A stretch of 64,000 nucleotides of DNA from Rhyzopertha dominica (lineage: Eukaryota > Arthropoda > Insecta > Coleoptera > Bostrichidae): contig QCXZ01000001.1 of the NCBI GenBank assembly GCA_025024175.1, positions 33,846,942-33,910,941 of the forward strand, read 5' to 3'. Under the pieces are notes generated by a model. That model made no database searches. It worked only from the letters and a program-made list of their open reading frames with translations, and was not told the origin of the DNA. This document shows, piece after piece, positions 2,319-61,300 of the stretch. Both the position numbers and the translations under genes were made by a program. Position 1 is the first letter of the stretch; every line of letters starts with the position of its first letter.

Positions 2319-2456
2319 TCATACAATTAAAGGTTCAATAACTATTACAATACTCATGGTTTAGGTAGATCTGTATATATAAATATGATAATGCAATGAA
2401 AACATGCACACAAATATTAAAAAATAAAAGTGTGTAAATACAAAAACAATACTTAC

Positions 2457-2652: not shown

Positions 2653-2706
2653 CTAAAAACAGATTATTTTAAAAAAACAATTGTTTGTGCAACTAGTCGC
2701 TAGTAC

Positions 2707-3104: not shown

Positions 3105-3156
3105 CTGGAAAAAGTGAGTCTGTCGATTATGTAAAACCCTTGCAGTGATCACTTAC

Positions 3157-3290
3157 ATGCTGTTTATCAGCGAGACAGGAGTTATTAATTGCCTCTCCCA
3201 AACAAGACTTTCTAAAAATTGTGTGTTGAGTACCATATGTTTTAACATAGGATTTAATAAATTCTGCAGCCGGTTTTTCGTATTCATTTT
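3157..3290 (-). CDS. Gene C exon 3
   Basis: 134 bp, the same length as in genes A and B. Encodes EYEKPAAEFIKSYVKTYG through ADKQH, the lead-in to UAS domain 2. Acceptor CAG at 3293-3291, donor GTAAGT. Confidence 0.75.
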
Positions 3291-3342
3291 CTGGAAAGAA
3301 GCATTATGAGAATTTATACAAGTATTTAATAATTCTATATGA

Positions 3343-4425
3343 ATGTAATTGTAGGGTATCTCGGTAACTATTAATGTTAGAATGTTGCAGTTTCGACATT
3401 ACTCTATTACATTTTTGTTGTGAGTTGAGCTGCTCGATCACCATTATTGTATCGTCTTTTGTTTTAAAGCTATAGCCAACTTTTGAAAAATGTAACATTT
3501 TTTCAGTTCCCAATATCTCGATTGACTATATGTAGATACAAAAAAAACTGTGGAGTTTGATTTATAGATATTTTTATTCTAAATCCAGTGGCGTACTCAC
3601 AATGTTTTAGGAAATCACATTTTGGAGATATAATACAAATTGCATTTTTAAAAATGGAAACCATAGTTGGCTTTGCTATGGTTAAAAAGACGTATTTTTT
3701 TAGGTTTATTTTTACCAATTTTGATATTATTGCAACTTTTGTAATAATTTAATCAGATTATACATTTTTAGTCAAAATGAACGTAAATAGTTGACGATAA
3801 ACAATGCATAGGTACTTATCTCCAAATAAACAATTATTTTCATTAGTTACATGGTCCTCTTGCTTGAGCGCTCTTAGGAGTGTTATGTATGTATTCAAAT
3901 ATGCATATATTATTCGTAATGGATTAAAATTTTTACTTAATAATATAAATTATATTGTGTGTTTCTCATTTCATAGCCTCCTGGATGTAAACATAAAATC
4001 TGATTAAATTACTAAAAAAAATTTGAATATTTCTAAAATTCGTAAAAATAAAGATAAAAATCATACATTTTTTAATCAGAAAAAATAGATCTTTTTAAAG
4101 CTATAGTTTCCATTCTAAAAATGCAAGTTTGTGTTATATCTCAAAAATGTGACCCCCGTTAAAATTTCTGAGTACACTAGATAAAATTAAAATTTCTATC
4201 AAAAATGTTCTTTTTGTATCCACATACCCAAGTGAGAATATTGAGATTTAAGAGCTGAAAAAAGTTGGCTATAGCTTTAAAACAAAAGACAATACAAAAA
4301 TGGTGACGGTACAGCTCGACTCACAACAAAAATGTACTACAGTAATGTCGAAAAAGCCACCCACTAGTATTAATAATTATCGAAGATACCCTACAATTAC
4401 AACGAAAATGGACACCCTGTACTAG
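3343..4425. mobile_element. Foldback MITE in intron 2-3 (left copy)
   Basis: Two long, diverged inverted arms (about 3343-3700 and 4085-4425) flank an AT-rich centre. Pairing can be read in gggtatctcggtaact against the complement of aattatcgaagataccc, and in aaagctatagccaac on both sides. The right arm continues into acaccctgta, a terminal string common in insect MITEs. No protein coding. The same element is at 31276-32358. Confidence 0.65.
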
Positions 4426-14400: not shown

Positions 14401-17400
14401 TTTCATTTAATAAAACATATAAAATAAGCAAAATGAGCTTTTTTAAATAGGTGCTTCCATAACGTATTTTACACGTGTTTTCTACCGCTCACTTATCATA
14501 ATAAGAATACGTTCAATAAACATTTAAAATATACATTTATAGAACCAATAAATAATNAGTGTGATAGACGTTGAATCAATACCATTATAAAACGTAGAGA
14601 ACAACGTAAAAATTTAGACATTGTTCAACTTATTTCTCACGTTATTATAACACTAAGAAAAACGTGTATTTGTTCGTGTAATCTTACGTGAAAATCAGCG
14701 ACATCTAAGAGTTGATTGTACGTATTAGTTACACGCATTCTATTAATACGTGTATTGACTTAAAAAACGTTTTTTTAAACGGACTTGTGTTTATTGGGAT
14801 GTTTATATTGTTTTTAAATAGTTAGCCATGGAACAATTGTTTCTTGTATCTGACAGAACAGCACTAAAAATTCATGTATTTGTAAGTTGAAAAAGGAGTT
14901 TTCAAATCTAGAAAAGCTTAATATGGTTGAATGCTAATCATATGCCGCAAAAATGCTGCTCGAGCATCTGAAGAATACTTTGATCGCTACCAAGATCGCC
15001 ATCAGCTTTTTTTAAAAGCAATTTAAGAGGCTTTACGATAGCTTAGGTCGATATGGCTCTTTTTGTAAATCAAGAAATCAGTCCAGGGGTATAAACGAAG
15101 CTACACAAATAAACATTTTGGCAAGTGTAAACATAAAACCATCATGTTCAACCCGTGACATTGTGATAACTGTTGTTAAAACATATTAAGATCGGCGTCT
15201 GGAGTTTTGTAACTGATATAGAAACATGTGCGCAGAAGACCCACAGTTTTTTTTAAGATTATGTGGTCAGATGAAATAAAATTTACAAACTGTGTTTAAC
15301 TGACATAATGAACATCTCTGGGCACAAGGAAACCTTCGCAATGTACAGCAAAGAAGACCTCAAATCAGATTTGGGTTTAATGTTTGGTGTGGTATTATAT
15401 TTCGGCGTGCAGTCCTCGATATCATTATAATTGTACATTCTGTAGTACGCGCCATCTACACTTCCCGCGCACAAAGTTGAAAGATAGCAAAACAACACGT
15501 TCCCTCTCCCAAGTACTCCTACTCCCCGCTCGGTTGTTCCCTCATTACAGAAAGTATCTTAGATTTTCCTTTGATAACTGTTTATTCCAATTTACTTGCC
15601 TTCCGTTTGGCCTGACCTCGGCTCCCTATACTTTTACAAAGCTTATAAAACCTATCGTTCTAGAGGTGTAGTACTGGTTAACTATTTAGATCATTTTTTA
15701 ATTATAAGCAGTTCTTTTAAGGAGTGTGTTCACCACACTCAATTAGCATTATCTCTATTAGAATCTTTGGGCTTTATAATAAATAAGGAAAAAAGCATAC
15801 ACCAAGTACTAAATTTAATTTCCTGGGATTTGTTTTCAACTCCTTAAAAATGTCTATAGAGCTTCCAGTTGAGAAGCATAAGAAACTTCTCAAGGTTATA
15901 AAAAAGTTTTCCCGTTGTCGCTCTTGTAAAATTCAAAAATTTGCCCAATTTGTGGGCCCCCTAACTTCAGCTTGCCCAGCAATTAAATACGGGTGGCTCT
16001 ATACTAAGGGATTTGAGCGCGATGAGTATTTTGCACTGCAACATAGTCGGGGGAATTTCAATGCGGTTATGAAAATGAATCCAGAATGGGAAGCAGATTT
16101 TGAGTGGTGGCAAAGAAAAGTTGTCAGTTCTTTTAATGACTTGAAAAACGATAACTTCCAAATTGAGATCTTTACTGATGCCAGCCTAACTGGATGGGGA
16201 GCATACTGTGATGGTGAAAAAACTTATGGGGGTTGGACTAAGGTTGACCAGGACAACCACATTAATTTTTTGGAGTTAAAAGCCATTTTCTATGGCCTAA
16301 AATATTTTGCAAAACATCTTACAAATACTAATATCTTGATTCGAACAGATAACACTACAGCATTATCATACGTAAATCGAATAGGCAGTGTCAGGTTTCA
16401 CAGCTTAAATCAGTTGGCAAGAGAAATTTGGACATGGTGTGAGCATCGAAATTTGTTTATTCTTGCATCTTATATTAGTTCTCTGGAAAACACATATGCA
16501 GATCAAGCATCTCGTATGTTACTTTCAGAAACTGAATGGTCTTTAAGAAATCAAAATGCTTTTTCAGAAATAATAAGTGTCTTTGGAAATCCCGAAATTG
16601 ACTTATTTGCCTCTCTAGCTAACCACAAATGTAATAGGTACATTTCTTGGCAAAAGGATCCAGGCTCGGAAGCAGTGGATGCTTTTACCTTAAACTGGTC
16701 AAAAGTTTTCTTTTATGCCTTTCCCCCTTTTAGCTTAATCTTGCGAGTTCTGCAGAGAATTCAGAATGACCAGGCATCTGGCATTTTGGTAGTTCCTCTT
16801 TGGCAGTGTCAGCCTTGGTATCCAATTTTTGTAAAATTAATGACCGACCCTCCTTTTGTTCTTTAGACCTGCGTCTAATTTATTAACTTCTCCTTATAGC
16901 GGAGCGCAACACCCACTTTCCTCGGAGCTTATCCTGGTGGCCGCGAGGTTGTCAGGGAGGCCCTTACGCTAAGGAACATCCCAACAGCAGCTATAAATAC
17001 TTTGATTGGTTCCTTGGCGGACTCAACCCTTAAACAGTACAGCGTTACCTTCAAGCTTTGGTGGAGCTTCTGCAAAAAATCTGACATTTCACCTTATCGA
17101 GGAGAGATTAGCCATGTAATTGCTTTACTTCAAGAACTACTGGAAAAAACTAACAATAAATATGGTTCATTTAATGCCCATAGATCAGCATTAGCCTTAA
17201 TAAGTACTGAAAACCTATCAACGGATCCACTGCTTAAGAGATTCTTAAAAGGAGTATTTAGAATGAGACCCTCTCTCCAAAATATGAAAAAACCTGGAAC
17301 CCACAGACCGTTCTGCAGTATTTAGAAGAGGAATAGTCATCAAGCCTGAAGTTGTTGTCTTACAAGGTAGTTACATTACTGGCCCTAGCAACAGCTCAAA

Positions 17401-20400
17401 GAATGCAGACAATTTTTCTTATCAAAAGGAATAATATTAAAAAATTAGACTCTGGACTAAAAATTTTTATTCCAGACTTGATTAAATCTTCAGGACCAAC
17501 AAGGAAACAACCGTGTTTGTGGCTGCCATATTTTGAAAACAAAAAGTTATGCGTAGCATCCTTTCTGATTGAGTATTTATCCCAAACTGAGACTATTAAA
17601 CCTGCTAACTGTAACTTCGTTTTCATAACTTTCCGCAGGCCATTTGGACCGGCTTCCAAGCAAACACTTAGCCGATGGGTAAAGAATACTCTTAAACGAG
17701 CTGGAATAGATGTCTCTCTTTTTACAGCTCATTCGACCAGACACGCATTGGTGTCTTCCGCCTTTCGAAAAGGTATTTCCTGGGACACAATTAGGAATTC
17801 AGCAGGATGGACTGAGAATTCATCGGTCTTTGCACGATTTTACAATCGGCCATTGGAACAAGAAGACCTCTACTTTCAAACAGTGTTTAATAAAATCTAA
17901 GATTTTGTTTTGGAATGATATATTATTTAGTTTCTTTGATACTGATGGCATTATACGTACTTGTTTTGTCATTTGCCAAAACTCATTGCAAAGAATAAAT
18001 ATTTTCTTATATTGCCTTGTTTTATGCCAACCAATTCTTTTAACAGCTACAGAGTGTACAATTATAATGATATCGAGGACTGCACGCCGAAATATAATTA
18101 AACGTTCAAAAGAACTTACCTGAAGTTCGATCGTAATTATATGAGGCGTGCAGTCCGAAGATATCATTACCCTCCCACCCCTTATTACCCTCATTTCGGT
18201 TGTCATAAAACTACTTTAAACATAATGAGGGAACAACCGAGCGGGCAATAGGAGTACTTGGGAGAGGGAACGTGTTGTTTTGCTATCTTTCAACTTTGTG
18301 CGCGGGAAGTGTAGATGGCGCGTACTACAGAGTGTACAATTATAATGATATCTTCGGACTGCACGCCTCATATAATTACAATCGAACTTCAGGTAAGTTC
18401 TTTTGATCGTTTAATTATCTATCTATCTATCTATTTAAGCTCGAGTATGGCAGTTATTTGGAACCCTCATTATCATATTTATATTGTCCTTATTGAACGT
18501 GTTCAGAGAAAATTTTATATTTATTTGTATTTTACAAAGGACTGTGCATTTCTTGTTCGCCATGTTCTACTACATTTTTGTTAAATGATTTTGGTTTGTC
18601 TACCTTACATTTTAGAAGAAAAGTGGCATGTAATTTACTCTTCTACAATCTAGTGCATGGGTGTATTGATAGTCCATGGCTTTTGGACAAAATAAATTTT
18701 CTTTCATTGCCTTGACTGGAAGGGAGGTTGTTATGTAATACAAGTTTTTCTTTGCCACGATTTAATAGTCAACACCATTTCTACTCACCACTTGTTAACA
18801 AGTGATGTAATTGTAATCATGTGAGTGTGACGCCGACATATTTCTTTCTAACAAGAGAGAATTTCTTCAAATGTGTAATAACATAATATTTTAGCAACAT
18901 ATATATTGTCAGTATAGTTTAGTTTTGTTTATATGTATGTAAACTAAAAAGTTTTCTGTTTTATTTTGTATGAATATATAGGTTCCTGTATGGGCTTTGC
19001 CTGTGGGTTTAAATAAATATTATTAGTATTAGTAGTAGTAGTACTTAAGTACATTTTGCTTATACTTGGCTCAGCTGTGGTTAATGATAATGTTCGACCA
19101 AGACATACATCAGTTTTGAATTTTGCACCCAAGATGATGACATACACAGTAGATTCATGAAATCTGTCACCTGTGTGGCAAACCATACTTTATTCTCACC
19201 ACATATTTACAGAAACATCAATACCATTGTCAAATATGACGAGGTAGCTCTACACTATAATACCTAATATAATTTTGTAAAATATTTGTTTTAATGTAGT
19301 TAAAATGTGAAATCTAAAATATCTACCGATAGGTTATGAAACAAAAATCAAGTTTATATTAAAGAGGCAAAAATATTCTGCATTTCACTTTAACATACCT
19401 GTGCCTGTTACTTCGCAAACTGTCCTGGTAATCCTGTAACACCTGCGTTTGAGTTTCTTCGACAATAACACTTGCAGACCGGAAGTTGTACACGGCATTT
19501 CCAAAGAACAAAACTGATGATGTCAGTTGTACAACTGCAAGTAAGGAAGGGGCAGCATTTTCTCTGCGCCACTGATCGATCATCTCATAAGTATTGTTGG
19601 CTACACCTAAACCATTAACGCCTATGTTACTAACGGTAATTACATTAACGGTCACTTGAGCTGCCTGCAATATAAAATAATCATTTCTCTGGAAATTAAT
19701 TATACTACTGTAGAAAAGATTACCCTTCCAATGTTGCTCCCACGAGAAACTAATTGTGTAACAACTGTAGTCGCCCCTGCTCCAACAAAACCAAGAGTTC
19801 CACCTACTATGTTAATATATGCAGCCCGTGCTTCAGAGTCAAAGATGGTTAAATCCTTGTTAAACAGAAAAATTTCAAATTATGAATCAAAATTTATAAA
19901 AAGTTTTTTTTTTATTCAAAATTTTTTAAAAAACTTCTAGGCACATTATGATCATATTATATGGTAGCCTAAAAATAAATTACTATGTTCGTGAGCCTAA
20001 ATAAATAACTAAAACTGATTTTAAATAACACTGAAAAACTTGTTTTAGCAAAGAAAAAATAATATACAATTCTCCAAGTCTGTAAATTTTGGAATGCAAA
20101 ACCTTAGCAAATGGTTGTTTAAAGATATCTATACCGCGCTGCACCCCCCCCCCCATCCCAAACTTTTTTTACATTAATTTGTCATTATTTCAAAAAAAAC
20201 AATTAAAGATGGGTGTAGGAAATGCTGCCAAAGTTACCTTAGATTCTTAAGATAAATTCAGAAAAATACAAAAACAAAAATTGTAAAGAAAAAAGAGAAA
20301 TGGCTTATAGAGTAGTTCAAGAGAAACATCAGATCGATACAAAAGAGGGTGAAGTAAAAAAAGACCACAGTTAATATAAAAAGAGGAAATGCTGTGGAGC

Positions 20401-23400
20401 AAGACTAAGTTTTAAAGAGTATGGAACCAGAAAAGAGAACAGTGCTAATAAAAATATTTAATATGGCATAGAATCAAGGAACTGTATCATAGGACAGGAA
20501 AATGGGTATAATTTTACCAATACATACCTCATGGAACTACATTAATCCAATTTTTTTTCAGATTTTTATCTCTGACAATTTTCGAGAAAAAAAACGATGA
20601 AAATGTTTTAAAAAGCACCCTCTATAATTGGAACAAATCCAAACTTGTTATTGCTACACATGTAAAATCTTCTGCAAACTTTTACGGTTCAAACGAGACC
20701 AACTTGATAAAAGTACATTAAACCGTTCACAAACTATTTACTATTTATTTAACATTTTAAAGAAATCACGATCTTTTGTGTTCACATTGACAATTGTGCC
20801 CTTGTGCGATAGACGGAGAAAGTTAATATTATTTTAAACAAATTCATCTAGATCACTTTTTTTGTGTAATTTTTTTCTAGAGATTCTACAAATAGCCATT
20901 CACGAGATACAGCCACTTACAGACTAACTTGATAAAAGTACATTAAACCGTTCACAAACTATTTACTATTTATTTAACATTTTAAAGAAATCACGATCTT
21001 TTGTGTTCACATTGACAATTGTGCCCTTGTGCGATAGACGGAGAAAGTTAATATTATTTTAAACAAATTCATCTAGATCACTTCTTTTGTGATTTTTTTT
21101 TCTAGAGATTCTACAACTAGCCATTCACGAGATACAGCCACTTACAGACTAACTTGATAAAAGTACATTAAACCGGTCACAAACTATTTACTATTTATTT
21201 AACATTTTAAAGAAATCACGATCTTTTGTGTTCACATTGACAATTGTGCCCTTGTGCGATAGACGGAGAAAGTTAATATCATTTTAAACAAATTCATCTA
21301 GATCACTTTTTTTGTGATTTTTTTTCTAGAGATTCTACAACTAGCCATTCAGGAGATACAGCCACTTACAGACTAACTTGATAAAAGTACATTAAACTGT
21401 TCACAAACTATTTACTATTTATTTAACATTTTAAAGAAATCACGATCTATTGTGTTCACATTGACAATTGTGCCCTTGTGCGATAGACAGAGAAAGTTAA
21501 TATTATTTTTAACAAATTCATCTAGATCACTTTTTTTGTGATTTTTTTTTCTAGAGATTCTACAACTAGCCATTCACGAAATACAGCCACTTAAAGACTA
21601 ACTTGATAAAAGTACATTAAACCGTACACAAACTATTTACTATTTATTTAACATTTTAAAGAAACCACGATCTTATGTGTTCACATTGACAATTGTGCCC
21701 TTGTGCGATAGACGGAGAAAGTTAATATTATTTTAAACAAATTCATCTAGATCACTTCTTTTGTGATTTTTTTTCTAGAGATTCTACAACTAGCCATTCA
21801 CGAGATACAGCCACTTACAGACTAACTTGATAAAAGTACATTAAACCGTTCACAAACTATTTACTATTTACTTAACATTTTAAAGAAATCACGATCTTTT
21901 GTGTTCACATTGACAATTGTGCCCTTGTGCGATAGACGGAGAAAGTTAATATTATTTTAAACAAATTCATCTAGATCACTTTTTTTGTGTAATTTTTTTC
22001 TAGAGATTCTACAAATAGCCATTCACGAGATACAGCCACTTACAGACTAACTTGATAAAAGTACATTAAACCGTTCACAAACTATTTACTATTTATTTAA
22101 CATTTTAAAGAAATCACGATCTTTTGTGTTCACATTGACAATTGTGCCCTTNTGCGATAGACGGAGAAAGTTAATATTATTTTTAACAAATTCATCTAGA
22201 TCACTTTTTTTGGGATTTTTTTTTTCAGAGATTCTACAACTAGCCATTCACGAGATACAGCCGCTTACATTCCTTGTTGCACTGTATCACCCTATATATC
22301 CACACATAAATATTAGGTGTGCTATTTAAAAATGGAACTGCTAATAACAGATGCCATGATATAACGCAGAATTCAACACCTTGTGGCATAAAACAGCAGT
22401 CTGTGATCATCAATTCATTGGATATTTGTACCTGAAGAGTCCAACAAGGAAGAAATTCAAAGCTATTCGATCGGAATGGATTGACCAGAGCAGATGTTAT
22501 TTATATCAAACTTTGAAATGCACCCTACCTTTGTCAAACTTAATTTTAATATTTTTTCAAACATACACAAATGCCTCACTCTGTATACAGCACATAGTGT
22601 ACTTACCGCATCATGCTGTCCCCTGTCAACTATAGTTGCGATACTTCTACCAATACTGTAAGCACCAACTGCAGCCCCTACGATACCAGCACCAGCTAGA
22701 ACCAGCGGTCCCACAGTTATTGCAGGAATCAGTGCAGCTCCAAAAACACTTGCACAACCAACGCCAAGCACAGTACTTGTTATATCCAAACCTTTCAGCA
22801 CCTGTGCAGATACTTGACATGCTGGAGATAGGTGGCGTTCAAGTATCACATCACCTGCTTTGTTCCCTTGGTACTTTCCGCCTTTTGGAAGAACCATTAC
22901 ACATGCATGTAATTTATTGTTGTTTATATAATCGAACCAGTCTGTATATACTCTCAAATCATGATCTATGAATATACGGCAAGGATTACCAGTCTCATCA
23001 TTGATGCATTTCCTTAGAACAAATATTGGATGTGGGCATATATCTGTTTCAGAGTTATACCCGGGATCCTTTCTTTTTTTTTTTTCTTTTTCATGTGGCA
23101 AAGGTTCCAGGCAGTTGTATATAAATGAGATAACGATTCTTTTGGGATTTTGAGAAAACTTTTCTGCAAAAAAAATTAAACTAACTATAAAATTATGTGA
23201 TAATGTGAGTAATGATAATGTGGATAAGTACTCTCTAGTATACAAAAATTGAACAATATTTGTTGAGCCTATAATAATGTAGCCAGGTGTTCATATGAAA
23301 ACGTTGCTATTTGTTGTTTATTTTATAACAGCCTGTACATAAAGTACCGAGACATGAAATTTTTGTTTGCAAAAGAATTAATAATAGTTTTTTTTTCATA

Positions 23401-26400: not shown

Positions 26401-29400
26401 TATCCGCTAGGAGCATGATTGAACCCCATATTAGCGATCCGACAACACCAAATTGTCAGCTGATTGCACATTGCGCCGGCTGTTATAAACTAGTTTATAT
26501 GCATGAACCATTTATAAAAACCCTGTATTTGATACTAAGTAGTGGATCTGTAATTTTAAAGCCCGTTCTGAAAAGATCCTTATGTCTTTACTAAACAGGT
26601 GTTTGTGGCTCTCTTCAAAATCCTGAATTAGGATACTAAAATAGTCCACTATGTCCATTTCGCTTTCGTTTAAAACTTAGAAAACTAGTATTTTGTGTCC
26701 ATATAAACAAGTTATAAAAGCAATCAGCTGGCAATTCAGTGTTGTCGGATCACTAATATGCGGTCCATCAAAGAAACTAAAAAATATATGTGTTTAAAAT
26801 CCAGTGAATTTAAATATATAAATATTTCTTTAAATATATATTATTTTTGTATATAATATAATTAATACAATTATATATTTCCTTAATTGAAATTTATATA
26901 TTTATACAGAAAAATATATATTTGCAAATTATAATTTATATATTTAATAAAAAAATATTATACTTAAAGACTTTATATTATTAATGATAATAATGTATAT
27001 ATTTGTAAAAAATATTAATGACACAAACGGTGCCTCATAATTAAATACCATGTAATGCTTATTTGCTATCTGTCTAGTACAGTGGTATGTTCTATTTGTC
27101 TAAATGAAAGTAAATTTTTATATTAGCACAGCCACAGTAGACTTAGTAGTAATCTTTATCGTATATGATTTTCAAAATACGGTTTTGAAGAACTTCTGCC
27201 ATCCTGGTGTAACAGTTGGTAACACTACCACAACCAACTAAACTGTGGAATGTTTAGGATATTTTTAAGTTGTTTAAATCAAAATAATAGACATCTCATC
27301 TTTGTCATCAAGCCTTTTAGTTGGACATGCCATTTTAGATTTATGTAAAGCTAGATACTTAAATTCTTTGTATAATTAACTCTTCCAATTTCTGTTGTTT
27401 TATTTGAGAGGTTTATTCTTAAAGTTTTAAAAATGGGTTGTGTATTGTTATAGCATGTGTAAGTGATAAACTTAGTTTTGGTTACATTAAAAGATAAAAC
27501 TCTGTAGTGAAACCACATCTCTTTCTACTGTCACCTTCATCACGTTCCAACCCACCGTCCTGAACACCACTGCCACGTCATCTGCATATGATGGGGAAAA
27601 AGTTTTACTGAAAAATTATTCTATTCTTATCATTGACAATGCACCTTATCAGTTATCACAATGTACAATCAAACCTAACACCATCATCCAGTTGTAAGAA
27701 AGCTGATGTGATCAAATGACTAAACACTGGAAATATTTATTTCAATTCAAATAGTTTTAACTTGTTATATGAAATTATAAAATGCCATATGAGACAATAC
27801 ATAACTTATAAATTCGACAGGTCACTACACACAGTTTTATGTTAACTGCCTTATCATCCAGATCTAAACCTTATCAAGTTAATATGGGCGACAGTTAAAA
27901 ACAAACACAAAGACACAACATTTAAGTTAGAAGACACCTAGGAATTAGCAGACACACACACACACAAGTGAAAGATTCCTGGATCAATGGATTCAAAGGA
28001 GATACTTCATCGAATGTCCCACAAAATCCCTGGACTTGACCCCATTGTATTTCTTGTGGGGCCATTTAAAAAATAAACCCCAATTCTTAACAAGATTTAA
28101 GGCAACTTATCATAGACGAATGCCATCAACCATTTTGAGCATTTAATAAAGTAAATGAAATGTAATTATTAAAACTTGATTTCTCGCTCTCTATTGTATC
28201 TTATTAAAAAAAAATCTTTTTGTAAGAAGATATTAATGGCTTTAAAATAAAATCCTATTTAAGTCTTTGCAATTCAAGAAAATAATTACATACTGTCCCC
28301 CTTGAGGTGTTAAAGTAGAGCTAGAGGGAAGTACACCTTTAGGTGCTCCACTTAAATATAAAATTGACTTATTTTAGTTTTTCCATTCAAATGGTCTGTT
28401 TTTATTGGGCCACTGGGTAACAGCTAATAGAAGCAAACTTTACAACCTATTTATAGTTCACGAATCATGCATCATTTCAATCTGCTGTAGATTAACACAT
28501 CACTTGCTATTAGTTTTCGTTTGCCAGTATAAAGTTTGCATTAAACTATTAATTTTTAGGCAGGTACTTACTACATAGTTTGTTATCTATATTTTTTAAA
28601 ACAAACAGAACTATTAACTATTTTTATTAACATCATACAACAAAAAAATTACATAACAATAGAAGTATTAAAAACACAGATAATTATCAATATCTTCTTT
28701 GATTATCCATATCGGAAGTTTTCTATATTCAAAGCTACCATCTATAGGTAAGCCTGCAAATATCTCTATGTAGAAAATGTTTAAGACCCAAGAGTGATGA
28801 AAAATATAAGGTGTAGCTAGTATACTCAGTCAAGCCAAACAAACAACAGTATCAGTTAAAAAAAAAGTCATTAAAATCTCAGATATGTATAAAAAAACAA
28901 TGTGGTTAATACGAAGTTTGACCTGATGGTTTAGTTGTGGTTATTTTTATTTGGGATACAGTTCTTCAAATACTTAGGTTGTTTTAATATATGAACATTT
29001 CGTCCCTGGTTTGGGCCTTTTTCAACATTTATTTACGATAAACTTTAAGGCTTCTAGAACATATTAAAATATACATGTATATAATTATTTGTAAAAAAAA
29101 TTGCTAGAAATACCTCAAAAGGAGTCCGTCCGATTGTAGAAGTATTATATTATTCGATATTTATAAAAACCAGCAGATGTAAATATTTTATTTAAAAAGT
29201 TCGTTAATTTAAATTTGATGTATATGTGACAGAAAGGTATATGATTGTCAGTGTTAAAATTTAGTGAGGATGGACTGATATATTTTAGATAAGTTTCTTA
29301 TTTCTGTACAGTTGTTAATGCAATGTTCGTCTTTTTGTATAAGTATCATTTCTAAAATTTTGTGTTCGTATATGTTCCGTTCTGTATATATAATAGTTGT

Positions 29401-32400
29401 GTTTTGGTATTTGAATTCGTGGAACAGGTCTTTTTTGTGGTTGTTTAAGGCTGTAATTGCATTTTCTTGTAGGTTGTTAGATTTGACCTACATAAGATTT
29501 ATTACAGTTATTACAGGGAATTTTATAAACTACATGAGTTTTTTTTAAAGTGTGAATTTTTGATTTTAATGGATTGTGCAGGTTTTTGATTTGGTTTTGG
29601 CTAGAATGAGCAATGTTAATTTTATGATTGTTATAAATACATGCGATTTTTCCGAAAGATATATATGGCAAAGCGACATAATTTTTAATTTCTCTGTCTA
29701 CAGGTTTTTGATTTTTATTATGAAATGCATACATATTTTTTTTAATAATTTGGTTTATTTGTTGAAGAGGGTAATTATTAAAAAACTCCTAATAAAAATT
29801 AGGAGTTGTTTGACCTTTTTGATGGATTCTGGACCATATAGTGTACTTGTGAGTTTGATATGTGATCAATAAGTGTGGTCATAACTGACCTTTTGTGTGA
29901 TAAATGGTGGTGAAAGTGATAGTTTAAGTAACGTCCTGACGATATTGTCTTGTTCTACCATTTTGCAGTTATTATGTTGTTGTTTCTGATAAGGAGTTAG
30001 ATCAAGAAAATTAATTTTATTGTTTTCTTCTATTTCAACAGTAAATTTTAGTTTTGGGTGGTAGTTGTTGAAATAATTTTGTATATCTCAAATTTTGTCT
30101 TTATGTACGCATATATATTTTAATATGTTTTAGAAGCCTTCAAATTTATTATAAATAAATGTTGAAAAAGGCCCAAACCAGGGCTGAAACGTTCATATAT
30201 TAAAGCAACCTAACTATCTGAAGAACTGTATCCCAAATAAAAATAACCACATCATACAATTAAAGGTTCAATAACTATTACAATACTCATGGTTTAGGTA
30301 GATCTGTATATATAAATATGATAATGCAATGAAAACATGCACACAAATATTAAAAAATAAAAGTGTGTAAATACAAAAACAATACTTACCAAATGTCTCA
30401 CAAATTTTTTTGTATCCTTTTTCTATTGTATGTTGCTGCTTATGGTTATATCCATCCACATGACAAGGTGGGCCAAAATATGCAAAACCAATTTTGTCTT
30501 TTAAATATGTGTGCTCACTACCATTAAATTNGTCATAATCTCTGTCACCCAGCATATCAAACATTATCTGCTGAAAGCGCCTAGAGCTAAAAACAGATTA
30601 TTTTAAAAAACAATTGTTTGTGCAACTAGTCGCTAGTACTTTATAATTTCTTCGCCATCATTTGATTTGTCCAATTCGTCTTCTACATTCATCTCATCCA
30701 TGAAATACTTATGAGTAGTTGTAAGCTTTTCAATTAAAGTTGATAGCTTCAGTGACCCATGCAGGACAGTGAATATGTTTATCATGTCCCTGACAGCTAT
30801 TATTAAGAATAATCCTGATCTTTTTGTAACCAATCTTTCTTTAAGCAAATCCATTTCACTGTATGCCTCGAGCATACTTTTCATCAAATCATTATGTAGG
30901 TCATTTCCAATGTCCCAACCCAAAAAGTAGAAATGCTCTTCAATAAGTTTCAGTACTTGCTGTTCTTTCAAGTACTGACAGAAAGTATTAGAAAAACCAT
31001 CGGTAGCATTATGGAAATACAGAGCCAAAACTTTTCGCTGGAAAAAGTGAGTCTGTCGATTATGTAAAACCCTTGCAGTGATCACTTACATGCTGTTTAT
31101 CAGCGAGACAGGAGTTATTAATTGCCTTTCCCAAACAAGACTTTCTAAAAATTGTGTGTTGAGTACCATATGTTTTAACATAGGATTTAATAAATTCTGC
31201 AGCCGGTTTTTCGTATTCATTTTCTGGAAAGAAGCATTATGAGAATTTATACAAGTATTTAATAATTCTATATGAATGTAATTGTAGGGTATCTCGGTAA
31301 CTATTAATGTTAGAATGTTGCAGTTTCGACATTACTCTATTACATTTTTGTTGTGAGTTGAGCTGCTCGATCACCATTATTGTATCGTCTTTTGTTTTAA
31401 AGCTATAGCCAACTTTTGAAAAATGTAACATTTTTTCAGTTCCCAATATCTCGATTGACTATATGTAGATACAAAAAAAAACTGTGGAGTTTGATTTATA
31501 GATATTTTTATTCTAAATCCAGTGGCGTACTCACAATGTTTTAGGAAATCACATTTTGGAGATATAATACAAATTGCATTTTTAAAAATGGAAACCATAG
31601 TTGGCTTTGCTATGGTTAAAAAGACGTATTTTTTTAGGTTTATTTTTACCAATTTTGATATTATTGCAACTTTTGTAATAATTTAATCAGATTATACATT
31701 TTTAGTCAAAATGAACGTAAATAGTTGACGATAAACAATGCATAGGTACTTATCTCCAAATAAACAATTATTTTCATTAGTTACATGGTCTCTTGCTTGA
31801 GCGCTCTTAGGAGTGTTATGTATGTATTCAAATATGCATATATTATTCGTAATGGATTAAAATTTTTACTTAATAATATAAATTATATTGTGTGTTTCTC
31901 ATTTCATAGCCTCCTGGATGTAAACATAAAATCTGATTAAATTACTAAAAAAAATTTGAATATTTCTAAAATTCGTAAAAATAAAGATAAAAATCATACA
32001 TTTTTTAATCAGAAAAAATAGATCTTTTTAAAGCTATAGTTTCCATTCTAAAAAATGCAAGTTTGTGTTATATCTCAAAAATGTGACCCCGTTAAAAATT
32101 TCTGAGTACACTAGATAAAAATTAAAATTTCTATCAAAAATTTCTTTTTGTATCCACATACCCAAGTGAGATATTGAGATTTAAGAGCTGAAAAAAGTTG
32201 GCTATAGCTTTAAAACAAAAGACAATACAAAAATGGTGACGGTACAGCTCGACTCACAACAAAAATGTACTACAGTAATGTCGAAAAAGCCACCCACTAG
32301 TATTAATAATTATCGAAGATACCCTACAATTACAACGAAAATGGGACACCCTGTACTAGATCAGTTATCATAGGGACACCAAATACTTTACTATATACAT

Positions 32401-43428: not shown

Positions 43429-46400
43429 CTGAAACAAAATGAGGTACCTTATTTAGAGTGTATGTTACTAATAGTGTTTGTTCTTATTCTTCACGTTTAA
43501 TGTTTAAGATACAGCTATTTACATATCAAACACAGTAATGTCCGCTTATAATGAACCTCAACGGACAGATGAAAACGGTTCGCTATAAGCGAAGTTCGCA
43601 ATAAACGATAAATGTAGTATCAGATTTTTTTTTGAATGATAGATACATACATATTTCGAATACATTTAAGTATCTTATTAAAAAAATTTTTTTTTCATTC
43701 ATTCTCAAAAATCTTGGAGGTTATCCAAGTGCGCCAAAAATATCTCCGTTAAAAACATAGCATAAGGCAAAAACTTCAGTGTAAGTATTATATATTTCTA
43801 GTTATGTATTAAACATTGTACGGATCGCTACACTGGTACTTACTCAACTACTACATTAATCTGATTCATCTCACTCTGTATAATTTGTAATTTCAGTTCC
43901 TCAGTTTTTTTATGAACATTTGAGCAAATTAATAGCCTTTACCTTCTTCATGCAAATGAGACAAACTACTAAGGACATTATCACAGCCATTGCAACTGTT
44001 ACCTACCTTGGTATTAATAATTATTAATATATGTTATTTTAACAGCAAAAATTGTTATTCCATGCCTACTTTAGATCCCAATAAAAAATTTTCTTTAACC
44101 GTTAGAATTTTCGAATACAAAAAATGTATTGTAATATATTATATTAAATATTATTATATAAATGAATTTTTCACCAGTTTAATCTGCTTTAAATATGTGA
44201 ACAGTCACATTGTAATATTTAATCATTTTGAAAAAAAATCGATATTTCGGTAGAACATTCTGAAAAAAATACATTATTTTATTACTTTTAGTAATATCTT
44301 ATAATTCTATTTCATGTTTTAACAATTCCATTTTGTTCAACCTTTAATATTTTCAAACACCCAAAAACATATTAAAATGCTGTTTTTATCAGTTTAATCT
44401 GCATTTCATTTTCCTTTTAATTACGTAAAAAGGTACAACCTTTGGTAAATTATCAGATTGTTCTTTCACAAAGCCTAGCTCCACCATAAACAAATTGTAT
44501 GCATCAACAATGTCCACCAAGTAGGCATGTAAGTACTAATCAACTAATCTGGCAAATGCAAGATTAGACTTGGAATATAAAAAACACCGCTACAAAACAT
44601 AATGTACAAATACTTAGCTAAAACACAAATCAAAACAATAATATTGGCGGGTAACACAAAAGAGTGCTGTAGGTATTAGATGGGTAACGGTATGTTACAC
44701 TACAATCAACTGCACGATGACCTATTTCAGATAAAGGGTTTGTAAATATATTATTTATTAATTATTTTCTTTGTATAAAATTATATATTATTTATGGGCC
44801 GTGCAGGATATTTATAACAACAATTTGCCATGATTTAAAAATCAAGCAACTTCTCCATTACGATTTGTACATAATTTTATTCACTGTTCTTCTTAATAAT
44901 TAATAATTGATGTAGACGATAGGTAGCCACATGAATACATCAAATCCACAAGAAATACTGCAAAAGCTAAAACTATTGTCCTACATTTACTTCCAGCAAT
45001 GTATTGACATATAATACGAGAATGCAAAGAACCTGATGGCTAAAAATTAAGATCCAGGGGTCTTCAAGTCTCGGATGGTTAGTAGTTTGTTTTAACCATG
45101 GTTTTCTGAACAGTTTGTGTCAAATATGAATNAATATTCGAAAAAAACTTGGTCATTAAGGAAGAGGCCGTTGTTGTAGGANAATNCCCCAGCTCATCCA
45201 AACCAAAATAATATAAAAAGGCAGTAACAGGGATCTTTAGCTTCATCTGAACATTAGCTACTGTTAAAAATAATATAAAATCAAATGGAGCAGAAACAGC
45301 TTCAAAGTTTTAGTGTTAGTATCATCAAAAATCATGGAAGAAACTAATGAACATAAAAGAACATGTGATTGGCTGAAAGTTGATAACCAAAATAAGCAGA
45401 GCTTTTCCAAATGCTTTTGACAATGAAGAAGAAGTAAACACCATTATATTTGCTATGTTGCTGAACAACAACCAAATGCAATAGCATGTCTCATATATTC
45501 TTGACTAAGAGAAAGAAACATTGTGGCAAAAAGCATAACCCAAGTGAAACATAAACAACTAAAAACTTTGTAAATTGTGTCTCGTTGATGAAAACACTGA
45601 TATATTACTGATATATTATTTCAAACATACCTGGATTTGTTGTTACGTAAGCCTTCCTGATAACTCTGTAAAATCTTGGTCTGAGTCTCCTCGATTAACA
45701 CCTTTGCAGACTTGAAATTGTAAACAGCATTTCCAAAGAAAAGAACTGATGATGTCAGCTGTGCAACTGCCAATGGTGAGGGTTTAATATTTTCCTTATG
45801 ATACTGATACAACATTTCGTAACTGTTATTTAGTATTCTCAAGCCATTGACTCCAACATTAGAGATGTTAATGACGTTAATTGCCATCCTGGCAGTCTGA
45901 AAAAAATGATAACTTAACGATTTGTATAGTTTCAAATTGTCTTTATTTTTAGTTTTCTAGTTTTGATATATCTACAGGATTTATGAGATATTTCTGTTTT
46001 TTTACATATGCTTTTATATTTGTTATCTTCTTTAGATGGCACTCAGAGGGGATCTGCGCATCCTAAAAGTGCTGATAACATGTATTACTAAAGTTATAAA
46101 TAAAAAAAAGGATCCAAATAGACCAGTAATTTACAACCTAGTGAAGCTTATGTAAATTTTTTAATAATCAGTAGGAAAATATTGATTAAAATCAGTAATG
46201 AAGGTGTACCAGCAGGCAGCTCTTTTGATTAGATAGTATTTATTGAATTCAAATCTTTCATTAAAGAAAGTTTACATAAACATTAAATAGAAATCAGCCT
46301 ACTGTAAACTTATGACTTTAACTATTTTTATTTTAGGAACTATTTATCAAGAACTGATCCATTCTCTAAGAGTATTTTTTATAATAATTAATATTCTTTA

Positions 46401-49400: not shown

Positions 49401-52400
49401 CTGAAGTTGCAGGAATCGATAAACAGTAGTAAGTACTCAAATGTAAATTCGTGAAAATGTATATAAGAATATCGAGCATTAAAAAGACAACGATGTAGCA
49501 TGAATACTGGTTATCGCACTACCTATGCCCTATAAAACTAAAGATGTAGTACTACTAATGTTTAACTACTAATATTAGTCGATTATTAAAATATATGGAT
49601 ACGAAATAATCGATTATTGAAATATCTCGATTATTCCCATCGCTACTATTAATAATAATAACTTTATTTGCATTAAAATGCATGTCTATGCTGTGCTGTC
49701 TACACCTCAACCAACTGCAGATAGTACTATTTCGTTGTGATTACAGCTCATCAGTGCAGTTTAGGTCTAGTGCAGACAACACGGCATAGAACTGGTTTTG
49801 CTTATATACCAAAGCAATGGTATGATGAAAGTAAGAATTTAGGATGGCAATGCCATCTGTCAGCATTACACTGACATGATGACAAAGCCACCTAGCTGCC
49901 TTAACGGGTACTACTTCCTAAAGGAAGTGCCCTATTGCTTTGGTATATAAGCAAAACCAGTTCTATGCCGTGTTGTCTACACTAGACCTAAACTGCACTG
50001 ATGAGCTGTAATGACAGCGAAATAGTACTATCTGCAGTTGGTTGAGGTGTAGACAGCTCAGAATAGACATGCATTTTAATGTATGTTGGTTCTTGCCCGT
50101 CAGCAAAAAGTGCCGTGGGGGCTTGCTGTCAAGTCAAATTGAAGTATGCAGTTGCATGCCAATTTGTCAGGCTACAGGTCACTTCCTTTAGGAAGTAGTA
50201 CCCGTTAAGGCAGCTAGGTGGCTTTGTCATCATGTCAGTGTAATGCTGACAGATGGCATTACCATCCTAAATTCTAACTTTATTTGCATAATAACAAAAT
50301 ATGTATATACAATGTTTGTGTATCGTCACAAAAAAAAAAAAAGAAATCAAGTTATAATTAAGATATTCATCAATTGTGTATGAACACATCTAAATCAGTA
50401 AATTAGTTATCTCAGATTTAAATCTTCCTACTGGTAGTGTTTTTAGTTCCTTAGGTAACTTGTAAACTTTTACCGCTTGTATTTTAAATCTGGTTGACTT
50501 GAATGGCATATTGGGCAAATTATTTAGTGTGTGGCAAAATCTCTTTGTCAGCGATGATTGCATTTTTGTTTTTAATTAAGTCTTTTAGTAATATTTATTT
50601 TGTTCTCGGAGAAACATTTCTTGAGTAGTATCTCGGTCATGTCATGCCGAGTGTTGTAACTCGCCTTTTGACCGTACAAGGTTGTCTGTGAAAGGATCCA
50701 GTCTCCCTATAATGTTGGAACATTCTTCGGACTACGGCACATGTCATATCAAGTTGTCTATAGCAACAGCTGGCTGGCTAAGTCCATTTTCGATTAGAAC
50801 ACAAACTTGGGAGGCTTTTTGTGGTGCAGAATGTATGAAGCTAAGACTCTCAAAATAGTCAAATTATGAAGTATGAATAATGTGCAAATTTCAAATGCAA
50901 AAGCAATAATTACAATCCGTCACAAATTTATTCTCTTTATCACCACCACATAAATACTTTCGTTTTTGTTTACCGGTTGCCATGCCTATAACTGATAAGC
51001 AATCTTGATAAATTTAAACTCATATTATAATATATTAAATTGTCTTTCAAACAGCATATTTCTTTATATGACTTCATAAAGTCAAAAGTTTCCAGTAGGC
51101 CAATTTCTATGCATGCAAGTTTATAAACACATACTTTAATTATTTAAAGAGAAGTGAGATTGCTACACTACAAATGTCAGAGGAATATAGTGGTATCGGT
51201 AAAAGTGGTTACAAACACAAAATTGATATTCAGCATTTGCAAGTGGATTCTTAAATTTTCCAATAGATATCTTCTAGGCAAATGCAAAATATCAACTTAA
51301 ATATGACTAGTTAAATTTTATGGAGCAATTTGAAATATTGGTTTGTGATTTTATGCCAAACTGTCATAGAGCTATTGCACTGGTTGATGAAGTCATAAGG
51401 TCACCTTTAATTACTTAACTGGAAATTTCCTTACAATAAATCATTAATATCATCATTTTAAATAGCTCTGTAGGTACAAAGAAATGAGATCAGCCCCATC
51501 AGAGGAGAAACTGTATAGTGCGGAGTATACTGCTGCATTCACTGACAAAATAATAATTAAACTATAGTCCAAAAGATCTCACTCTACAACCACTTAGGTA
51601 ANTAATAGTTATGTAGTAGCAATTACTCATATTATTGGTATCTTGCATTGCTGCTCAGAATAATGCATCAGTAGTGATTTTAAAAACAACTTGCAAAATT
51701 CACAGAGCTCTATTTAACAAAATCTATAGTTAAAATAGCAACTGACATTCCAGTAGGAGCATCCTAAACATTCAGTACCTTTCCAATGTTGACACCTCTT
51801 GAAATCAACTGTGTGACTGCAGTTTGTGCTCCTATTCCCACAAAACCAAGGGCTCCGCCTAGTATGTTAATGTATGCAGTGCGTGCTTCTGGGTCATAGA
51901 TACTCAAATCCTTAAAAAAAAAAATTATAATTTTTTTAAACAAATCTAAATGTGCAGAGTTGTATTATAGTATAAACATATTTTCAAATAATAATAAATA
52001 ACACACATTACTTTATCATTATTACTGTCAAATCATTTGTTTTTGTTTTAAAATGCACCCCATTTAGATGTCCTTGTCATAACGTTTACTACATGCAAAT
52101 ATAAAAGGGTCTGCTGAGCCCACTAAAAAGATGTATTAGAGCTTTATGAATATTTTTTCTATTACTGGAAACGAAACAATTGTCTGAACTGTGTCAAGCG
52201 AATTAATGTAAAAAAAACCTATTCTGAATCTTATATCTTTTAAAAGAAGCTAAATAATGTAAACAGGCATACCTCATCATGTATGTGTCTATCAACAAGG
52301 TTTGCCGAGGTTCTAGCAACAGTGTATACACCCACAGCAGCAGTAACAATCCCTGCAGCTAACGGGGCTATAGTTATTGCTGGAATTACAGCTGAAGCAC

Positions 52401-55400
52401 AAACACCTATAGAGCCTAAACCAAGAACAGCAGTCGTGACATCCAAGCCTCTCAACACTTTTGCAGAAACTTGACAGGCAGGAGAGAGATGCTTTTCAAG
52501 CAATACATTCCCGGTTTCATTACCTTGATACTTCCCATTTCTCGGAAGGACCATTACACACTTATGTAATTTAATGTTATTGATGTATTTCAACCAGCTT
52601 TGGTATACTCGCAAGTCATGGTCAATGAACACTCGACAACCGGTGGTACCATCAGGTTTGATGCATTTTCTCAAAACAAATATCGGAAGCTGACATATGT
52701 CTGTTTCAGGATTGTATGTGCTGTTCTTTCTCCTTTTTGCTTTCTTTTGACTAGGCAATGACTCAAGGCAATTCCATATAAATGATATAATTACTTTGCC
52801 AGGGTGTTCAGCAAATTTTCCTGAAAAAAAAATGGATAGTTTAATGTACTTGGGTGTGTCTGAAAAAATATTTCAAAATATAGAGGCAAAAATAAAAATT
52901 TCATGCTGTAGTAGAAATCTACATTCTCTATAGGTTAGAATTCTGATAACACACTAGTTCACGTCTTGGCTCAGAAAACGAATTTCATCAATTGGTGTCT
53001 AAACATTGTCGGCTCTTTTATAACCAGAAATAACAAACAATGAATATAGTTAATTCCATTTCTATAAAACCAGCAGTGTTGTTAGTAATTAATTACAATT
53101 ACTTGAAAAAGTAATTAAATTACTTTCATTGTAATTGTAGCTATAATTAATTACTTAATGTACAATTGTAATTGATTTGTAATTGAATTACCCATTTTGT
53201 TACAATTACAATTACATTTTCACAATTACATTCAATAGAACTATTATCAATATGTTGAAAGTTTAAATCCAATTGTAAATCAGTGGGTAGGTAGATATTG
53301 AAAATACTGTTTCAACAAGCAAAACTTTTTCACATAAAATTCATTACGGTGCTTTAGCAAAACTTAATTTACTTGGATTAGTGTCAGTAGATCGACTAAA
53401 GCTTCCGATGAAGTAGAACATGTTTGCACTACAAAAATGAATGTACCATACCCTACAAGATGGAATTCACATTTTGACTGTTTCAACTATAGTCACTAAA
53501 AATAAGCACTTTGATTCCATTTGCAGTGCACTCAATGCAACTAAACCTAATCGGCTAAATTAGATTTTTTGCAAGAATATTTAAATATTATAAAGCTATT
53601 CGCTAAGCTATCACAAGTACTTCAAGGGTAAAAGCCAGTTATATCTGAGATGCGCTTTGCCAACTATTTTTTCAGTTAACCCAAAGGTAGTGAACAAAAC
53701 AGAAAATTTGCAATTTTGTGTCGAGCTCCGGGATTCAATTATAACAAATATTAAAAATGTTTTTTATATATTTTAGATTTCAATCAGGTATCCAGAAGAC
53801 CCTACATTTAAGCAAATTATTCCTTATCACAGTTTAAACATAACTTGATTAATTCTGAGAAAGATAAAAGAATTATGTTGCAAGTAAGAATTTAGGATGG
53901 CAATTCCATCTGTCATCATGTCAGTGTAATGCTGACAGATGGAATTGCCATCCTAAATTCTTACTTTCATCATACCATTGCTTTGGTATATAAGCAAAAC
54001 CAGTTCTATGCCGTGTTGTCTACACGAGACCTAAACTGCACTGATGAGCTGTAATGACAGCGAAATAGTACTATCTGCAGTTGGTTGAGGTGTAGACAGC
54101 ACAGCATAGACATGCATTTTAATGAATTATGTTGCAGTTAGAATGAAGTCCAAGAACAGTTTTTGTTTTCAAGTGATAACAACCAAAGTCCTTGCGATTC
54201 ACCTCTAGAATATATATTGTCAAATTTTTGATTATATAGATATTCCAGAGCTGGATGAAGTCAGCAAAAATGCTTAACATATAGAATTTTTAGTTTATCT
54301 GAAAGTAAAAAAATCACTGCCTGTAAAAGGACAATTGTGTCATATATGCTTATGATATGGCAATTTTGAGCACTGAAAACTCTTGGGAAGATACTCAAGA
54401 TAAAATGACCCTTAAAAAAGTTAGTGTCTAGCTTGGGTCAACCAACTTTCTTTAAATTAGCAAAAACAGATTTTACGACTTTTGTAATATATAGAGATAA
54501 TGTCTCCAACAACATTAACATACACATAGATAGACAACCCATAAAACAAGTTAAATACTAAGGATTTTATAATGACTACAATATGAGATAGGATAGGCAG
54601 GTGGAACAGGTGATTGGTAGAACTAGGTATTTGCTGCCTGTTTTCGCTAAACTTGCTAAGATTATGCATTGTAGTACACTTTTAACTATTAACTATGCTC
54701 TTTTTCATAGTGTGTGCACTTACAGAATCATAGCTTTGGGGAGGTGCCCATAACAACATAATACTTCNTTTACAAAATAGAATTTAAAAAATAACATTGA
54801 TGGATAGTGCGGGTAGTAAACTGCCTTTAAATTTTAAGCAAACTTTTGCTTTTAATTCGCTTTTACACCATTACCGGCAATTAAGTCATAAATATTCCCA
54901 GTCTAACAGCATAACCAGAAACAAAAGTTTAATAAAACCCAAGATATATAAAAATATTAGTACTAAAAGCAGTAGAATTGTGGCTGTTAAATATTTCAAT
55001 GAGTTACCTGAGAAATTAAAAAATTTAACAGCCAGTAAAGATACTATTAAGCAACAATTATGGAAGTGGATTGTGGTATACAAAATGTAATTTTAGGTTT
55101 TGTGTTAAGATAATACAGTTTAGCTTTCATCTTCAAGAAAATATACTTTTTTGGTATCTATAATATTTTATGATATTATATTCCCCCCCTCCCCCCGGAC
55201 TTATGTGCAGGTATTATATACCTCTATAGGACTTGCATACATAATGTATTTTTCAAGGATGAAACGCCTATAATGCTGCAAAAAAAACGGCATGCCAAAT
55301 GTCAATAGATACTTACCAAATGTAGTACAAATTTTGTTAAAGGCCTTGTCTATCTTGATTTTTTGTTTGTTGTCGTATCCATTTTCTTGACATGGAGGTC

Positions 55401-60109: not shown

Positions 60110-60155
60110 TTTGTACTGACGATGGCTAACATGTAGCCGAAAGCGCTTTACAATT
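60110..60155 (+). ncRNA. Minimal PLE-type hammerhead core (plus strand)
   Basis: CTGACGA 60116-60122, stem II tggct-aacatgt-agcc, GAAA 60139-60142, loop GCGC with a one-pair helix III. The palindromic loop could let two transcripts form a dimer ribozyme. Inverted partner of 59704-59745. Confidence 0.68.
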
Positions 60156-60540
60156 GAAAAATAAAGTGGAAGTTCACTTTAAGAATATTTTCTTTTGAAG
60201 AATTAATTAATAACTCCACTTAGAGAAGATGGATCAGTTTTCAATTTTTAACTTATAGTTATACAGATTAATATATTCAAAACCAAAAACGTGTCGAATA
60301 ACGCTTAAAACCAATAATGATGATAATAGTTCCTCTATATTAGCAAAGAAATTTATTAATTTGTTACTTTTCACATGTCACTAAATTGAGCAGCACCAGA
60401 TAAAAATCCATTTATATTTATTCGTGCAATCTGAAAAAATCTAATAAAAAAACTAGTCTAGAAGTTAACATAAAGCATTTCGAACATCTTCTAAATAAAC
60501 GAGGGGATATTAATTTACGTATTAATATGGTTATTATTAT
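60134..60540. repeat. 407-bp direct duplication, unit 1
   Basis: Begins tagccgaaagcgctttac in the PLE terminal repeat and runs to attattatt at 60540; repeated immediately at 60541-60947 with one visible substitution (atttatt against atttgtt). Confidence 0.95.
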
Positions 60541-60947
60541 TAGCCGAAAGCGCTTTACAATTGAAAAATAAAGTGGAAGTTCACTTTAAGAATATTTTCT
60601 TTTGAAGAATTAATTAATAACTCCACTTAGAGAAGATGGATCAGTTTTCAATTTTTAACTTATAGTTATACAGATTAATATATTCAAAACCAAAAACGTG
60701 TCGAATAACGCTTAAAACCAATAATGATGATAATAGTTCCTCTATATTAGCAAAGAAATTTGTTAATTTGTTACTTTTCACATGTCACTAAATTGAGCAG
60801 CACCAGATAAAAATCCATTTATATTTATTCGTGCAATCTGAAAAAATCTAATAAAAAAACTAGTCTAGAAGTTAACATAAAGCATTTCGAACATCTTCTA
60901 AATAAACGAGGGGATATTAATTTACGTATTAATATGGTTATTATTAT
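60541..60947. repeat. 407-bp direct duplication, unit 2
   Basis: Tandem copy of 60134-60540. The junction falls at a ttattatta/tagccg boundary, consistent with slippage, unequal exchange or assembly duplication. Confidence 0.95.
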
Positions 60948-61051
60948 TATAAATATAATGCAAAGACAGCAGAGCTGTTATATTGCATGTTACATAATTT
61001 TGTAATACACATGATTTACAACAAGAAGGAATAATCAAAACAGCAATCCTG

Positions 61052-61300
61052 ATGCAACTGATGTGTTTGATGCATATACAGATCAAAAACACCCAACCAA
61101 AAGCAAAGTCCCCATCAAACAGCAACAAAAACTTACAAAGCACCAACTACGCCTTCCGGAAGATCGTTCCAAAAATCAATGACATGGACAGAGAAGAAGT
61201 GCTTACGGGCATTTATATGGAAACTTGGCTTTGCCTACTTCAAAGAATGTCCTCTAAGATTGTCATTACCACTACGCTTAAAAAGCTTGTGAAGTTTAAC
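61052..61300 (+). pseudogene. Possible LINE C-terminal scrap
   Basis: Frame with NLQSTNYAFRKIVPKINDMD resembles the tail of LINE proteins, followed by att/tta-rich DNA like a LINE 3' end. Weak; no other domain. Confidence 0.3.

Follow-up and report, generated by a model that had tools for sequence, protein, structure and literature searches.

The 241-bp sequence at 53883-54123 of the window (the 64,000-nucleotide stretch of Rhyzopertha dominica DNA that was analysed) is probably one retrozyme insertion made by the machinery of a Penelope-like element (PLE), in which the nicks of both target strands would prime reverse transcription at different sites of the retrozyme RNA. The insertions of this family have head-to-head arms, two fixed and different ends (sites A and B), target-site duplications and recurrent junction palindromes. 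On its sequence features the family itself is of a known kind, a high-copy, insect member of the metazoan non-LTR retrozymes, as its unit, hammerhead and duplication features match those described by Cervera and de la Pena (2020, PMC7229834). The insertion architecture points to two-sided priming of the PLE type; no description of such retrozyme ends was found in the open-licence PMC literature, a scope outside which most subscription journals lie.

The insertion is directly enclosed by an exact 13-bp target-site duplication, GAATTATGTTGCA, at 53870-53882 and 54124-54136, as described in the original prediction, which had been made from the letters alone. Also borne out is the perfect 33-bp terminal hairpin, formed by 53883-53915 and 53933-53965, which are fully complementary over 33 nt; these two stretches share a variant that is missing from a second insertion in the window. 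The left half of the hairpin (53883-53915, minus strand) is a 33-nt inverted copy of the end at site A, and is taken to be the arm primed at A. The putative B-primed arm (53911-54123, plus strand, mapped by BLAST to the segments P and D of the repeat unit) consists of the end of the body segment D and then the whole of segment P with the hammerhead, up to site B; segment P, as delimited by the repeat unit analysis, covers the 158 nt from A to B (53966-54123, plus strand). The two arms meet at a head-to-head junction at 53911-53915, where 5 bp, TGTCA, are common to both, as found from the comparison with the second insertion and with other loci. The 241-nt strand has a predicted minimum free energy of -116.3 kcal/mol (z -13.1), and none of 200 shuffled sequences is as stable.

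Several other identities were considered and rejected. The predicted lack of a tRNA promoter and of an A-tail is confirmed, ARAGORN giving no tRNA gene in the window and the letters containing no A-tail, and this speaks against a tRNA-derived SINE. A foldback or MITE DNA transposon is rejected because the ends A and B differ in sequence and are not inverted copies of each other. A microRNA precursor is rejected as well, the best match, mir-7131, having 51.2 bits against a gathering score of 74, and such matches below the cut-off fit many long hairpins. From within 29477-54136, a PLE fragment and the insertion at 53883-54123 recur on another contig (C3:24267491-24295255, loci L009 and L117). 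Since L009 has the same 13-bp duplication and flanks that are 99.4% alike, it is, judged by these flanks, the same insertion in duplicate, arising from a recent segmental duplication or an uncollapsed haplotype.

The type I hammerhead that had been predicted is complete in its core, with CTGATGA, stem II, GAAA, a palindromic stem III and TC at 54041-54075 (plus strand) and the predicted cleavage after 54075. The extended stem I, for which about 21 outer pairs had been claimed, is formed by 54005-54025 and 54090-54110 (both plus strand), where 20 of the 21 positions are paired, one as G-U. When the whole window is compared with Rfam, no family reaches its gathering score; the best hammerhead match, HH9, which aligns with the core and the stems, scores 28.1 bits (E 1.4e-5 for 124 bases), where the cut-off is 52. 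In form, the covariance search proposed together with the prediction thus goes against it, the score being below threshold. Stem covariation across the family is the better evidence for a hammerhead. When the pairs are counted in 107 near-full-length P units, ignoring the relatedness of these units, pair 57-128 is AT in 89, GC in 8 and GT in 5, and pair 86-93 is GC in 97 and AT in 4, so that both pairs are changed on both sides; such both-sided changes are seen in stems I and II. Taken together with the A and U on its flanks, stem III forms a perfect 10-nt palindrome in 98 of the 107 units. Two variants of this palindrome occur, ATAGTACTAT in 75 units and ATAGATCTAT in 23, which are separated by a double change, and the loop of stem III is GTAC or GATC. 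A type I hammerhead with a complete core and a weak palindromic stem III, suited to dimers, are both properties of the metazoan non-LTR retrozymes. The core is intact in 93 of the 107 units. In the test of core substitutions against the neutral rate, also named beforehand, the mean divergence of the core is lower (0.0115, compared with 0.029 outside the core and stems II-III), but not significantly so, since 557 of 10,000 sets of random positions reach an equally low value; selection on the core is at most suggested by these values. The hammerhead patterns gave 0 matches in the viral and prokaryote collections in which they were sought.

The genome (479 Mb, 138 contigs) contains many copies of the family. 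The pattern of the 44-nt 3' half of the hammerhead, with at most 3 mismatches, occurs at 4794 sites, and its reversed control at 0. When P and D are mapped onto the loci retrieved, they recur in tandem every 351-353 nt. The unit of ~353 nt is made up of P, which runs over 158 nt from A to B and includes the hammerhead, and D, which covers the 195 nt from B to A. Insertion sizes are roughly 0.1-1.7 kb. One 351-nt unit has a GC content of 43.6% and a fold z of -7.6, with none of 100 shuffles as stable. The longest open reading frame inside the unit has 47 codons' worth of residues (47 aa), and a 62-aa frame on the other strand crosses the unit boundary; no frame over 62 aa overlaps the unit, and the frame with reverse transcriptase and GIY-YIG domains that characterizes a PLE proper is absent from it. 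The units are therefore tandem, non-coding, within the 170-400 nt of retrozymes and below 50% in GC, and duplications longer than 4 bp, as expected for retrozymes, are found at 78 of 107 loci. The units of one locus are alike in a way that fits a shared template in segment D (0 of 5000 shuffles), whereas in P they give no such support (1200 of 5000). Tandem repeats are also seen elsewhere in the window, as an array at 20696-22269 (225-bp period, 7 copies, 96% matches) and as a duplication at 60134-61102 (407-bp period, one pair 99% alike).

The ends of the insertions follow a rule, when site A is defined as ...AATTCTTACT and site B as ...CATTTTAAT. In 58 loci, 41 have one A end and one B end, 14 are one-sided (12 B, 2 A), 3 are other, and A/A or B/B is seen in none. 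These loci come from two samples. The first comprises 18 loci outside the class of the hairpin query (L029-L045 and the second insertion in the window), with 15 A/B, 2 one-sided B (L033, L045) and 1 unclear (L039). The second comprises 40 consecutive clusters on contig 1 (L076-L115; the cluster at 12590015 is skipped, being already in the set as L023), with 26 A/B, 10 one-sided B, 2 one-sided A (L099 and, less surely, L082) and 2 other, namely the ambiguous L093 and L103, in which one end is at A and the other lies 27 nt past B, at what may be a third start site. The ends of these 40 loci are scored by eye from segment strings, with the short A arms of L090 and L112 taken from the flanks, and as an exact near-B sequence was needed for this sample, A/A is under-ascertained in it while B/B could not be missed. 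In all resolved two-sided insertions except L103 the arms run outward from the head-to-head junction, one to A and the other to B. The direct repeats at the 78 loci, from automatic scoring of all classes, are 8-19 bp long (mode 13-14 bp) and 80% A+T, and the seed-verified ends at these loci are A/B in 39, B only in 34, A only in 3 and none in 2. B starts are sharply placed, 69 of 73 being within 2 nt, and 42 A starts are spread over 14 positions. When neighbours no more than 2 kb apart are compared in the first 100 retrozyme places, 12 are -/+, 0 are +/- and 8 are on the same strand. Mobilization by a PLE would leave a head-to-head inverted insert flanked by a duplication and two distinct ends per insertion; both are observed, the latter as insertion ends. 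From these positions, sites A and B would be the start sites of reverse transcription.

The second insertion in the window illustrates this rule. A search of the window with the core pattern finds three hammerheads, and the two besides that at 54041-54075, located at 49720-49754 (minus strand) and 49998-50032 (plus strand), both sit in an insertion at 49674-50274, one on each strand, enclosed by an exact 15-bp duplication, TAACTTTATTTGCAT, at 49659-49673 and 50275-50289. Its putative B-primed arm (49674-49929, minus strand; the inner edge is approximate) consists of P with the hammerhead and then the end of D, and its putative A-primed arm (49934-50274, plus strand) consists of most of P with the hammerhead and then the whole of D, up to site A. 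Body sequence D 1-94 is present in the A arm and missing from the B arm, so that snap-back copying of the B arm cannot have produced this A arm.

PLEs are present in the same genome, and degenerate GIY-YIG fragments (YKIPCNNCNKSYVGQ), which we take by their motif to be of this type, are located in the window near 1583 and 29515. Pfam returned no PLE family for the PLE pieces submitted, including one of these two fragments, and the PLE unit gave nothing informative against Rfam at E up to 1. A 4.07-kb segment that includes FAF1-like and PLE fragments occurs twice in the window, at 1-4067 and 27932-32000 (99.6% identity). The window also contains, at 15787-17900, an RNase H-like frame (E 9.5e-4, below the Pfam cut-off) together with tyrosine recombinase frames, probably a DIRS-like element, and gene fragments of DUF4781, a mainly arthropod family and as such what an insect source would lead one to expect, at 22463-23290 and 45621-45956 (both minus strand; E 2.8e-42 and 2.3e-20). 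When the genome is searched with the GIY-YIG fragment and the best 150 of 3309 candidates are scored, eight are in open frames of 826-864 aa, and among the 28 pairs of neighbouring PLE matches within 5 kb from these 150, 23 are -/+ (head-to-head), 0 are +/- and 5 are on the same strand. In one PLE family, 44 matches (from the best 40 of 154 candidates) end at query 221-231 in 31 cases, at 182-188 in 4 and at 244 in 1, and 8 run to the query end. Three compact PLE copies (L121, L122 and L123) show head-to-head arms between duplications of 12, 15 and 12 bp, with one end carrying a tail of 34-37 nt and the other end untailed. L121 was chosen for its compactness, and as L122 and L123 were picked after their differing ends were already visible, these two confirm the existence of the pattern and the duplications, not its frequency.

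These observations agree with the PLE insertions described in PMC3846280, which have an inverted 5' pLTR, a duplication and an optional tail on one end, and with the biochemistry in PMC11167929, where a purified anole PLE was found to cut both strands and extend them, with internal starts at two sites, one on either side of the tail. The earlier assignment as a retrozyme-like or PLE-dependent element is well supported by the unit size, the type I hammerhead and the palindromic stem III, and also by the tandem units, the duplications and an insertion signature common to the PLEs of this genome. PLEs are named as a strong candidate for moving animal retrozymes in PMC7229834, and animal retrozyme repeats are stated to have no conserved motif from which an autonomous partner could be deduced (PMC7761336). 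The PLE ends in L120-L123, compared by eye, show no resemblance to the retrozyme sites A or B, and for this reason the family is assigned to no partner PLE; between L121 and P or D, BLAST gives chance-level matches only. The spacing of the start sites, 34-37 nt in the PLEs and 195 nt in the retrozyme (or 158 nt round a circle), counts against the PLE reading.

In the reading that we prefer, the PLE endonuclease would nick both target strands, and from each nicked 3' end a sense retrozyme RNA, either multimeric or circular, would be reverse-transcribed, starting at A from one end and at B from the other, after which the two same-sense cDNAs would be joined head to head. Some 30 nt from A lies the inverted repeat TGTCA...TGACA, at which two cDNAs that both extend this far could anneal, and this would generate the perfect 33-bp hairpin seam. 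Cleavage of the transcript is presumably the work of the hammerhead, which probably acts as a dimer via the palindromic stem III, as suggested by the sequence and the literature. We infer the priming by both nicks on sense RNA, the PLE protein as the enzyme and the dimeric action of the ribozyme from the sequence patterns. Arms of about 2.5-3 units (L036, L040, L096, L115) cross the predicted cleavage site, which would imply an uncleaved, multimeric or circular template and not a cut linear monomer, although as evidence on the form of the template such long arms are loose hints. It is an evenly balanced question whether a stricter version holds, in which PLE-type retrotransposition proceeds without a classical second-strand step, each nick being obligatorily extended from a different start site and the cDNAs being fused head to head, as would happen with a dimeric enzyme that grips the RNA in two places, with annealing of the palindrome where available. 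Two results of PMC11167929 count against the preferred explanation: no difference in start site was found between the top and bottom strands, by which an obligatory pairing of A and B is not predicted, and ribozyme cleavage is not needed for insertion in vitro. The 14 one-sided insertions among the 58, the core conservation that falls short of significance and the missing template signal in P also weigh against it.

It is also conceivable, but unlikely, that a cDNA begun at B jumps to an antisense retrozyme RNA and ends at A, which would be the 5' end of that RNA. An antisense template is the route favoured for PLE inverted repeats in PMC3846280, and a plant retrozyme is said in PMC9695139 to replicate from RNA to RNA. 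This route requires an antisense RNA with a fixed end, and in vitro, synthesis on both strands begins at the PLE sites that seem to be the counterparts of A and B (PMC11167929); the one-sided A insertions (L099 and probably L082) also argue against it.

The nature of the hairpin bears on two further explanations; the alternatives to the preferred reading do not all exclude one another. The hairpin junction pattern, CCATCTGTCATCATG...CAGATGG with up to 2 mismatches, is found at 50 places (reversed control 0), of which nine are left out: L044, L067, L069, L070, L072 and L073, which are not palindromic hairpins or have other junctions, L051, which has an aberrant A arm, and L009 and L055, which duplicate insertions already in the count, their flanks being 99.4% and 97.9% alike. 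Of the 41 independent palindromic copies, 25 carry the loop in forward and 16 in inverted orientation, and both orientations are present in both D-end subfamilies. The 1-nt deletion that marks a subfamily is present in both arms of 12 copies, in neither arm of 28 and in one arm of 1; in this last copy, L052, the difference may reflect two template RNAs in one insertion or a later change. Of 33 positions, the two arms of one copy differ on average at 1.61, compared with 4.65 across copies. The hairpins thus arise anew and are not passed on as a module, given the two loop orientations and the agreement of the arms in the deletion in 40 of 41 copies. The original description of an element built from a hairpin plus a hammerhead does not hold on this point, the hairpin being a recurrent insertion junction. 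It is probably the seam at which two cDNAs were joined head to head: TGTCA of one same-sense cDNA would pair with TGACA of the other, in two ways that would give the two loop orientations. In the 40-locus sample, junctions other than the hairpin prevail.

One of these explanations is that priming is one-sided, at B, and that the cDNA then snaps back and primes itself, giving the hairpin, with A as a mere copying stop. The perfect arms and the TGTCA/TGACA repeat suit such self-priming, which was invoked for PLE palindromes in PMC3846280, but snap-back predicts forward loops only, and as 16 of the 41 are inverted it is contradicted as a general route. It further predicts that the A arm has no body sequence beyond that of the B arm, which the second insertion violates. 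Both counts speak against it as a general origin of the hairpin, and it is quite improbable as the explanation of this insertion, though it may be the source of some copies.

The second, very improbable explanation is the layout originally proposed, in which the 241-bp hairpin-hammerhead is itself transcribed and propagates. It would account for the 21 matches, including the window copy, in which 237 bp or more of the 241 bp are aligned at 94-100% (among the best 40 of 1134 candidates scored), 17 of the 20 others having flanking repeats of at least 11 bp. The two loop orientations within each subfamily and the shared deletion state of the arms argue against it; in addition, the position of the A end differs from copy to copy, other junctions exist (L021, L023), and L009 is the same insertion duplicated. 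Twin priming by a LINE on a SINE-like RNA is likewise very improbable: LINE-1 twin priming yields inverted 5' parts with similar duplications, but here an A-tail and a tRNA gene are lacking, both ends are at fixed internal sites, and the PLEs of this genome carry the same kind of two-site signature.

If the stricter version of two-sided priming by a PLE is correct, retrozymes would exploit a two-site rule of the PLEs and expose it in thousands of small readable insertions. With sizes of roughly 0.1-1.7 kb, the insertions preserve a record of the two end sites, of how the arms were joined and of the cut in the target. The two-ended A/B signature is structural evidence on the enzyme that moves animal retrozymes, pointing to PLEs, and it bears on the mode of PLE insertion, which is left open in PMC11167929 and PMC3846280.

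When compared with known systems, the family resembles the Dolichopoda pDo500 satellite (PMC2837043) in being an insect repeat with a hammerhead, and differs from it in that pDo500 is a satellite. The Schistosoma W-elements (PMC8490949) are likewise satellite-like repeats that carry a hammerhead, and one W-element may have a duplication, but no head-to-head rule or fixed two-end pattern was found in the available text on them; similarly, no hammerhead or retrozyme was found in the available text of PMC12910113 on D. virilis elements. With the metazoan non-LTR retrozymes (PMC7229834) the family shares the type I hammerhead, a weak stem III with a palindromic tetraloop, tandem units of 170-400 nt, a GC content below 50%, duplications longer than 4 bp and co-occurring PLEs. 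It differs from them in the extended outer stem I of 20 pairs, in the lack of a match at the Rfam gathering score and in its head-to-head insertions with two fixed, different ends, which are not described there; the words "inverted" and "target site" are absent from the main text of that paper as available. The mode of insertion resembles that of the PLEs (PMC3846280, PMC11167929), with inverted arms, a target duplication and two start sites that give one tailed and one untailed end, while the retrozyme is distinguished from them by having no long open reading frame, a fuller, not minimal hammerhead, and putative start sites that lie much further apart.
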